The notes beneath the pieces were generated by a model. That model had not been told where the DNA came from and did no database searches. It saw only the letters and a list, made by a program, of their open reading frames with translations. A stretch of DNA of 64,000 bases, from positions 62,001-126,000 of the forward strand of contig NZ_JAAHIH010000007.1 in the NCBI RefSeq assembly GCF_010671925.1. Direction: 5' to 3'. The DNA comes from Moorena sp. SIOASIH. GTDB taxonomy: Bacteria > Cyanobacteriota > Cyanobacteriia > Cyanobacteriales > Coleofasciculaceae. Positions 24,326 through 49,623 of the stretch are shown here, piece after piece. The translations under genes were made by a program, and so were the position numbers. Within the stretch, counting starts at the first letter, position 1. Every line of letters begins with the position of its first letter.

Positions 24326-24888
24326 TAATCAAGTCCCAACCCAAATAGTCCCTGGATTTTTGATAATGGGTAATGGGTAATGGGTAATTGTCAACTACTT
24401 TTTACGAATTAAGCACTCGGAGATAATTTTTTTTAATTGTGTTAAGAAACTTAACGTTGCTCAAACCCTGTCTTGATGAGCTACCTCGCTGCATGGCTTT
24501 CTGTTCCCTGTTCCCTTGTCCGAAATTCCCTGGTGTGAACAGTCAACTTGAATTGTGTCCGACTACTTACCAATTACCAATTACCCGGGAAGGGATCTGA
24601 TAATTAGTCAACGAAATAAAATATAATTTATTAATTTTGGAATCTGATAGTCTTGGTAAAAAAACCCAGCACAATATTGATGGGAACCATAATTCCAATC
24701 AAGATGGTAGTGCTAACTAGTAGATAGGGATTGTTTGGTATCCCACATTCCGCACTTCAAAGTGTAGTTTGGAAGCTACTGCGTCCGGCTACGGGAACGC
24801 AAACACCGAGAACAGCCTAATTTATAACACCTTAAGTATTTCTAATCAAAAATATCGCCAGCATCCCCAGAGTATAGATACTAGAGTC

Positions 24889-25119
24889 GTAAGTATTCAG
24901 CTATCACCTATCAGTTATCAGTTATCAGCTTTTGAATCAAACAAGTAAGCATTGGAATAATGCTGAGTGAAATCCCAGCGTCGTTCGCACAGCGTGGCCA
25001 TTCGCGTAGCGTGGCCAAAGGCCAAGGCCAAAGCCTGTGCCAAAAAGCACCTCAAGCAGCGTGAGCCTTTAGCTGACGGCTGACGGCTGACGGCTGACGG
25101 CTGACGGCTGAATGCTTAC
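24889..25119 (+). repeat. family A element, intact copy with exact 8-bp target duplication
   Basis: A 231-bp element starting GTAAGTATTCAGC and ending GGCTGAATGCTTAC, flanked by CTAGAGTC on both sides (24881-24888 and 25120-25127). The interior has CTATCAG/TTATCAG heptamers, an internal GTAAGCATT, a CACCTCAAGCAGCGTG stretch with GCGTGGCC palindromes, and five CTGACGG heptamers. No ORF is present. Confidence 0.85.
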
Positions 25120-25756
25120 CTAGAGTCTACATACTACACTTAATATTACAAACTGACGTGGGGAATATCGGTTCACAGTCTATCGCTCTGAATCTGATCC
25201 CTGACTCCCAGAGCCACTGCATCTAGACCGTGATACACCCATGATTTTGCACCCGAAACCTATATTTGCAAATGTGACCTTGCACTGTCAATAAAAAGCC
25301 AATAAAAAGCTGTAGCCAATGTCTCAGAGGATTTGGCTACATCGTGGCGGCTATCTGCTGGGCATTTAGCCCACTAATCTACCGCTTTATTGAGACTATT
25401 ATCAATTAACCCGAAATTTGACGGCAAAATTTGCCCAAAACTTATTTTAATCATAATATCATACTTGATTTAGTGAATTTGTCAAGTGTTCAATGTAACT
25501 AATTGACTAGCGTGGAACCTAAATATCCATTCCTTGCTATACTGGAATAAACCTACCTGATCTGATCAGGTTACTGATCCCGAAAAGGCTGTGTGACACT
25601 TAACTATAGAATTTCCATTTGAGTTGTGAACGTAATTGCTTAGGGAAAGGCAAGAGGCAAGAGTCAAGAAGCAAGAGCCAAGAGCTAATAAAGTGTATAA
25701 AGATTTTTGGTAATCGAAAAAACTGTCATCCTTGTTTACAACTCATTTGTAAATTC

Positions 25757-27305: not shown

Positions 27306-27351
27306 TTTTAGCCCACGCTAATTGGGACAGCTATTGAACATCTAATTTGCT

Positions 27352-27564
27352 GTAAGCATTCAGCCGTCAGCCGTCAGCCGTCAGCCGTCAGCCGTCAGCA
27401 TTCAGCTGACGTAACAAAGATTAAACGAATGCTTACTTGTTGTCTTGATGCAATAGCGAGTGGGGGAAACCCCCAAGACCGCGCTGCATCGCTTATTTAA
27501 AAGCTCAAAGCTGAGAGCTGAGAGCTGAGAGCTGAGAGCTGAGAGCTGAGAGCTGAATGCTTAC
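27352..27564 (+). repeat. family A element with exact 8-bp target duplication and nested palindrome
   Basis: A 213-bp element, GTAAGCATTCAGC..GCTGAATGCTTAC, flanked by AATTTGCT at 27344-27351 and 27565-27572. It carries five CCGTCAG heptamers, an internal GAATGCTTAC, a nested palindrome GTCTTGATGCA..GGGGGAAACCCCC..CTGCATCGC (27442-27492) and about six GCTGAGA heptamers. It lies in the 347-bp gap between the AAA_35 gene and tmk. Confidence 0.88.
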
Positions 27565-27652
27565 AATTTGCTTATTACCTGAGCTTGTTCAACCCATGGT
27601 TTAAGCTGTAGGCTATCAAACATTAGCGCCATGAGTATAAGAGGAGGTCGGC

Positions 27653-41765: not shown

Positions 41766-41924
41766 TTAAGCATATGCCCATAGCGCACGCTACTTGAGGT
41801 GCGGTCAGCGGTCAGCGGTCAGCTGATTTTATTCAAAAGCTATTCGTACCTCAAGTAGCGTGGCCACAGGCCAATGGCTGATAGCTGATGGCTGATAGCT
41901 GATGGCTGATAGCTTAATGCTTAC
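41766..41924 (+). repeat. family A element with near-exact 8-bp target duplication
   Basis: 159 bp from TTAAGCATATGCC to AGCTTAATGCTTAC, flanked by GCAAAAAT (41758-41765) and GCAACAAT (41925-41932), 7 of 8 identical. The interior has GCGGTCA heptamers, CACGCTACTTGAGG/CCTCAAGTAGCGTGGCC and GCTGATAGCTGATG arrays. It lies in the 286-bp gap before the flippase gene. Confidence 0.7.
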
Positions 41925-49404: not shown

Positions 49405-49623
49405 GTCAGCTATCAGCTATCAGCTATCAGCTATTAGCTATCAGCTATTAGCTATCAGCTTATGGCCACGCTACTTCAGGTATTTTTTTAATAAAAGAGG
49501 TAAGCATTAGTTTAATCTGAGTGAAGTCACAGGCATTAAGCCTGTCCCACAAAGCACCTCAAGTAGCGTGGCCATAGGCCTTGGCCTTGGCCAACGGCTG
49601 ACCGCTAAGGGCTGAATGCTTAC
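49405..49623 (+). repeat. family A element with near-exact 8-bp target duplication
   Basis: 219 bp from GTCAGCTATCAGC to GGGCTGAATGCTTAC, flanked by GGAGCACT (49397-49404) and GGAGCAGT (49624-49631). The interior has CTATCAG/CTATTAG heptamers, an internal GTAAGCATTAG and CACCTCAAGTAGCGTGGCC. The core is shared with the copy at 24889-25119. Confidence 0.75.

Follow-up and report, generated by a model that had tools for sequence, protein, structure and literature searches.

The window analyzed here, the whole stretch of 64,000 nucleotides corresponding to C7:62001-126000 of a 9.94-Mb Moorena genome (G000), carries a 231-bp unit in which heptamer arrays face each other across a short interior (Table 1). 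No open reading frame of at least 60 aa overlaps the unit. Its two 13-bp ends differ from one another at a single base, the right terminus reading ...GGCTGAATGCTTAC on the forward strand, and the flanking octamer is the same on both sides; the chance probability of such an exact 8-mer match at a given position is ~1.5e-5. Direct reading of the DNA confirmed the preliminary description of a noncoding unit with inverted ends and an exact 8-bp flanking duplication. An Rfam search of the element region returned no family match, and plasmid records contained nothing resembling the 231-bp element. A structured-RNA reading was dropped, because single-strand folding (z = -2.8) was roughly what inverted ends would be expected to give.

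Table 1. Features of the 231-bp element and of related copies in the window
Feature	Position	Strand	Remarks
MITE	24889..25119	.	231 bp, noncoding
Target-site duplication (8 bp), left copy, CTAGAGTC	24881..24888	.	Single CTAGAGTC at the empty site of G004
Left terminal inverted repeat, GTAAGTATTCAGC	24889..24901	+	'TA'-type end; first inner unit TATCACC
Left heptamer array, ATTCAGC TATCACC TATCAGT TATCAGT TATCAGC	24895..24929	+	In phase with the terminal repeat
Interior	24930..25071	.	Without similarity to IS66 DNA or transposase
Right heptamer array, five CGTCAGC units adjoining ATTCAGC	25072..25113	-	In phase; 'CG'-type end
Right terminal inverted repeat, GTAAGCATTCAGC	25107..25119	-	Direct sequence reading
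Target-site duplication (8 bp), right copy, CTAGAGTC	25120..25127	.	Direct sequence reading
Second full copy	27352..27564	.	213 bp; duplication AATTTGCT at 27344-27351 and 27565-27572
Probable decayed copy (tentative)	41766..41924	.	Left end TTAAGCAT; flanks GCAAAAAT/GCAACAAT; by eye
Copy with worn left end (GTCAGC...)	49405..49623	.	Duplication GGAGCACT/GGAGCAGT

The unit belongs to a set of several hundred small nonautonomous mobile elements in this Moorena genome. With up to one mismatch allowed, the window contains eight occurrences of the end motif GTAAGYATTCAGC, where 0.13 would be expected, and the second full copy there has a CGTCAGC array at one end and a TCTCAGC array at the opposite end. 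Across G000 we counted 684 exact ends (340 + 344) and none of a reversed control pattern, while four sister genomes of the genus Moorena (G001-G004) held 283, 240, 152, and 92 exact ends with reversed controls of 0 or 1. G000 has the most ends of all genomes searched, and among 291 genomes sampled across the class only a few, all belonging to the same order, had at least 10 ends. Single DNA-pattern matches in Pyrinomonadaceae, Anaerolineae, and Methylomirabilis had no partner end with a duplication and were therefore excluded from membership. Two side observations concern repeats in and around the copies. An internal motif, GTAAGCATTGG / GTAAGCATTAG, recurs within several elements (window positions 24945 and 49500; G000 C1:276509), often after AACAA; it looks like a further terminal repeat and is perhaps the trace of nested or recombined copies. 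Separately, a stretch of ~88 bp at G000 C1 ~484334-484440, flanking the copy at 484228 on its right side, belongs to another dispersed repeat family; a search of four sister genomes matched it dozens of times at 90-99% identity.

Duplication of the target is a property of the family and not of the window copy alone. In 1.264 Mb of G000, taken in stretches of which those beyond C1:540000 were partly picked for ends, so that densities are biased, 22 of the 82 nearest inverted end pairs were flanked by matching exact 8-mers, against an average of 0.2, and never more than 2, in shuffled pairings; allowing one mismatch raised this to 26 of 82, with shuffled pairings at 0.2-0.4. Duplications of 4-7 or 9-14 bp were absent from the same 82 pairs, and flank identity per position stood at ~0.5 across exactly eight positions and at ~0.1-0.3 beyond them. 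With three mismatches tolerated in the ends, 46 elements of G000 had a duplication with no more than one mismatch. The duplicated octamers are richer in AT than the sampled DNA (66% versus 56%), and only 6 of 41 insertions lie inside open frames of at least 150 codons, compared with 213 of 300 random sites, indicating that surviving copies are mainly intergenic.

Comparison with the sister genomes provides evidence of insertion at individual loci. When the element and one duplication were removed in silico and the flanks aligned across the junction, the window copy was matched by empty sites in G004, with one intact CTAGAGTC, and in G001, with CTAAAATC, in alignments that were ungapped or nearly so. 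For 11 of 24 further copies, one or more sister genomes had the empty site, differing in length by 0-3 bp, and one copy was filled in both G000 and G002 and empty in other sister genomes. At another locus the element occupies the identical site in four species with very different interior and array lengths, G004 again being empty. Precise empty sites together with length variation at a common site imply that insertion is precise and that change after insertion is large. The preliminary description had named two results that would overturn its reading, namely flanking 8-mers that match only at chance level in other copies and related strains that lack an empty site; neither was found, given 22 of 82 flank matches against ~0.2 and the empty sites of G004 and G001.

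These observations bear directly on whether the array might be a passive tandem repeat, formed by slippage in place, with its ends and flanking octamer coincidental. Slippage does seem active on the arrays, in which 153 of 238 adjacent units of G000 are identical, as local slippage would produce. However, duplications of one length only are 100 times more frequent than chance predicts, and sister genomes have precise empty sites; these results leave the passive reading with practically no probability, and we reject it on these grounds; the same duplications and empty sites support the earlier proposal that the array sits inside a mobile, MITE-like element. The 231-bp unit is short and noncoding, is bounded by terminal inverted repeats, shares with other copies a target-site duplication of 8 bp only, and belongs to a family with multiple copies and with empty sites in relatives, all of which are properties of a MITE. 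It also consists in part of tandem 7-bp units between genes, as short tandemly repeated repetitive (STRR) sequences do, though within a mobile element.

The arrays are built into the ends of the element. In the 46 elements of G000, the NNTCAGC heptamers run in phase with the final seven bases (ATTCAGC) of the terminal repeat, whose outermost six bases, GTAAGC, are similar to the unit GTCAGC. At least one NNTCAGC unit stands directly behind the terminal repeat at 85 of 92 ends, and at least three units at 62 of 92. Viewed from the arrays, the fetched DNA contains 232 with at least three units, of which 177 begin at a terminal repeat or fall within an element verified by its duplication, and 206 (89%) have an inward-facing end no more than 500 bp away, against 8% of random sites in the same DNA. 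The array is an inward extension of the terminal repeat and not an unrelated passenger. We also observed other tandem arrays near several copies on C1 of G000, made of GGCAAGA and TGACTTC heptamers and of CTGTTCCCTGCTCCC units, which are not of the NNTCAGC type.

Outside Moorena, among copies sampled irrespective of heptamers, 20 of 29 ends carried a unit, and other genera also contain array-free elements of 122 bp with GTAAGTATTCAGC / GTAAGAATTCAG ends and flanks matching at 7-8 of 8 positions (loci L250, L256, L266, and L268), apparently another IS66-type MITE family. Together these indicate that arrays are typical and not required. It is nonetheless conceivable, and compatible with our main explanation, that the arrays function in transposition, for example as repeated binding sites for the transposase, and that selection maintains them. 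The TCAGC core lies beside the same terminal repeat in copies with 8-bp duplications from Moorena, Okeania, Richelia, Anabaena, Dolichospermum, and Cylindrospermum, and the asymmetry of the first units described below is conserved. Yet the array-free 122-bp units have inserted in other genera, so arrays are unnecessary for insertion, IS66 itself has none, and orthologous copies differ in array length, all of which make a function unlikely. We think it most likely that the arrays grew by replication slippage from the first unit of each end, independently at the two ends, and that after insertion slippage and recombination would keep altering array and interior lengths.

The two ends of one element agree in their terminal repeats and TCAGC cores and differ in the NN of the first unit. 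Our comparison covered 46 elements of G000 and 37-39 from other genera, many of the latter being Okeania copies and non-independent. Identical first-unit NN at both ends was found in 1 of 37 elements of G000 against 11.6 expected, and in 0 of 37 from other genera against 14.2 expected (0 of 5000 shuffles in each case). Typically one end has CG and the opposite end TA (20/37 in G000, 29/37 in other genera), so that the heptamers of the two ends differ systematically, CGTCAGC versus TATCAGC, in Moorena and in other cyanobacterial genera, with Richelia, Anabaena, and Dolichospermum copies showing the CG/TA difference as well. In Moorena the difference is kept across whole arrays; in the other genera it is mainly confined to first units.

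Most simply, the element would have an inherited left/right polarity and ends extending to about base 20, each of which has seeded an array of its own. End-specific heptamers might instead result from selection against perfect long palindromes, as would suit the Moorena arrays, which have no unit common to both ends in 33 of 37 elements. Against this, 26 of 37 elements from other genera do have common deeper units while their first unit still differs, and the ends agree at chance frequency by the third unit; these two results favor an inherited or functional polarity and leave palindrome avoidance a somewhat unlikely cause.

A full-length insertion sequence with nearly matching ends, of the kind that the preliminary description suggested looking for, does exist in these genomes and belongs to the IS66 family. 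One copy in G000 (C6) is 1548 bp long with GTAAGCATTCAGGTG ends, the duplication TAATATTC, and a broken frame; a second G000 copy of 1809 bp has GTAAGGATTCAGGT ends and the duplication CTCGAATG; a 1543-bp copy in G003, with GTAAGCATTCAGGTG ends and the duplication TAATTTAG, retains an open frame of 485 codons; and G001 too contains an IS66 element with GTAAGCATTCAGGTG ends and an 8-bp duplication. The 485-codon product is an IS66 transposase by NF033517 (NCBIfam; 295 bits against a cut-off of 180) and PF03050 (Pfam). Within 1.26 Mb of G000, the only end pairs more than 600 bp apart with an exact 8-mer duplication were those enclosing IS66 genes. The consensus MITE end is identical to the Moorena IS66 ends at 12 of 13 bases, terminal repeats starting with GTAA and 8-bp direct repeats are common to both, and readable IS66 ends across the order likewise start with GTAA and have 8-bp duplications, both of which were search conditions. 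The 231-bp unit is best classed as an IS66-related MITE.

The likeness is confined to the ends. Base 13 is C in 98% of Moorena MITE ends and G in Moorena and nearly all other IS66 ends read, and no IS66 element was found to combine C-type ends with heptamers. The match to IS66 inverted repeats does not continue beyond base 13 over the ~20-30 bp of such a repeat, identity ending at base 12, and inverted similarity within the MITE past the terminal repeat is limited to TCAGC cores with differing NN. Neither blastn nor tblastn matched any of the 46 elements to the three Moorena IS66 copies or their transposase, and we rejected internal deletion of a known IS66 copy as the origin of the MITEs because the interiors hold no remnant of IS66 DNA or protein and nothing is similar beyond the ends. 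With no coding capacity and no tblastn match, the 231-bp unit has no PF03050 domain and is not an IS66 insertion sequence itself. Moreover, G000 shows no intact IS66 transposase, all PF03050 matches (C3, C5, and C6) being interrupted, split, or partial, which makes current mobility there doubtful; the source of transposase in this genome may now be silent. Since base 13 differs and nothing beyond the ends is common to both, mobilization in trans by an IS66 transposase is something that we infer, and for which the end sequences and duplications provide good support.

The same differences could point to a transposase yet to be discovered, from another IS66 subgroup (with base 13 C) or from another family, whose site would include asymmetric 20-bp ends, GTAAGCATTCAGC-CG/TA-TCAGC. 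Base 13 and the lack of any intact IS66 transposase in G000 speak for this, as does the CG/TA asymmetry at bases 14-15, which several genera conserve and none of the IS66 ends read displays; in G287, a genome with 50 ends, the Moorena IS66 protein found no more than a very weak match. On the other hand, IS66 elements share 12 of 13 end bases and an equal 8-bp duplication, and none of ~600 end pairs spaced 900-8000 bp apart, from loci that are not a whole-genome sample, bounded a long C-type element with an exact duplication. We consider such a transposase improbable. In our judgment the element is very probably a MITE with IS66-like ends of 12-13 bp and arrays extending from them, moved in trans by an IS66-family transposase with 8-bp staggered insertion. 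The transposase, supplied in trans, would bind ends of the form GTAAG(C/T)ATTCAGC and move the element to mostly intergenic, somewhat AT-rich sites, where cuts staggered by 8 bp would give rise to the CTAGAGTC duplication.

Heptamer arrays have long been catalogued in cyanobacteria without a known origin. In Moorena, most of the arrays of one type can now be assigned to a defined mobile element; its insertion rules have been measured, relatives show its empty sites, and the transposase family to test has a name, so that the old question of how such arrays arise and come to be scattered between genes is open to direct experiment. The family shows a route by which the end of a MITE grows a tandem array and explains part of the repeat load in these large natural-product genomes. 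Beyond the preliminary description, our analysis adds the partner family, the anatomy of arrays in phase with the terminal repeat, and the polarity of the ends, and it also located the empty sites. As a tentative generalization, for which our expectation is less than even, cyanobacterial NNTCAGC arrays might be extended transposon ends, with one MITE lineage of fixed polarity (a CG end, a TA end, and effectively 20-bp asymmetric termini) having spread through Moorena, Okeania, Richelia, Anabaena, and their relatives, and slippage seeding each array. If so, part of the catalogued cyanobacterial tandem repeats would be a by-product or working part of one transposition system, whose transposase would itself still be to be discovered.

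STRR heptamers of cyanobacteria are seven-base tandem arrays between genes; the NNTCAGC arrays of Moorena differ in that most are tied to the ends of mobile elements. Among insertion sequences, ISAva2 of Trichormus variabilis (IS66 family) resembles the MITE in the start of its ends, GTAAG.ATTCAG, and in its 8-bp duplication: its copies are 1547 bp long, with GTAAGGATTCAGGT ends, duplications CGATAAAG and GAATCCAG, and 53% protein identity. Unlike ISAva2 and IS66, the MITE has no transposase gene, is 231 bp long, has C at base 13, and carries heptamer arrays, only the terminal 12 bp being common. IS66 inverted repeats are described as starting with GTAAGCG and being flanked by 8-bp direct repeats (PMC11946415), a description that the observed GTAA ends and 8-bp duplications fit. 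The type II MITEs of Anabaena sp. 90, also cyanobacterial and compared here with the Moorena family by description only, measure 77-541 bp and are said to match no insertion sequence of that genome (PMC3542288), and PMC10969869 cites Nezha as a cyanobacterial MITE. The literature searched, to which most subscription journals did not belong, gave no account of an IS66-related cyanobacterial MITE; nor did it give one of heptamer arrays as extended MITE ends. Older work on STRR and small dispersed repeats fell outside the search, which leaves priority uncertain. A precedent for a MITE containing a tandem-repeat array is BrickBuilt of Porphyromonas gingivalis, which has spread an array genome-wide at intergenic sites and has ends resembling a resident insertion sequence (PMC4596501). 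Its array has units of 23 bp and is bounded by a leader and a tail, in 19 copies of the element (PMC4596501), whereas the units of the Moorena MITE are 7 bp long, occur at both ends, and are in phase and continuous with the terminal repeats in hundreds of copies, with 8-bp duplications and empty sites demonstrated for the Moorena family.
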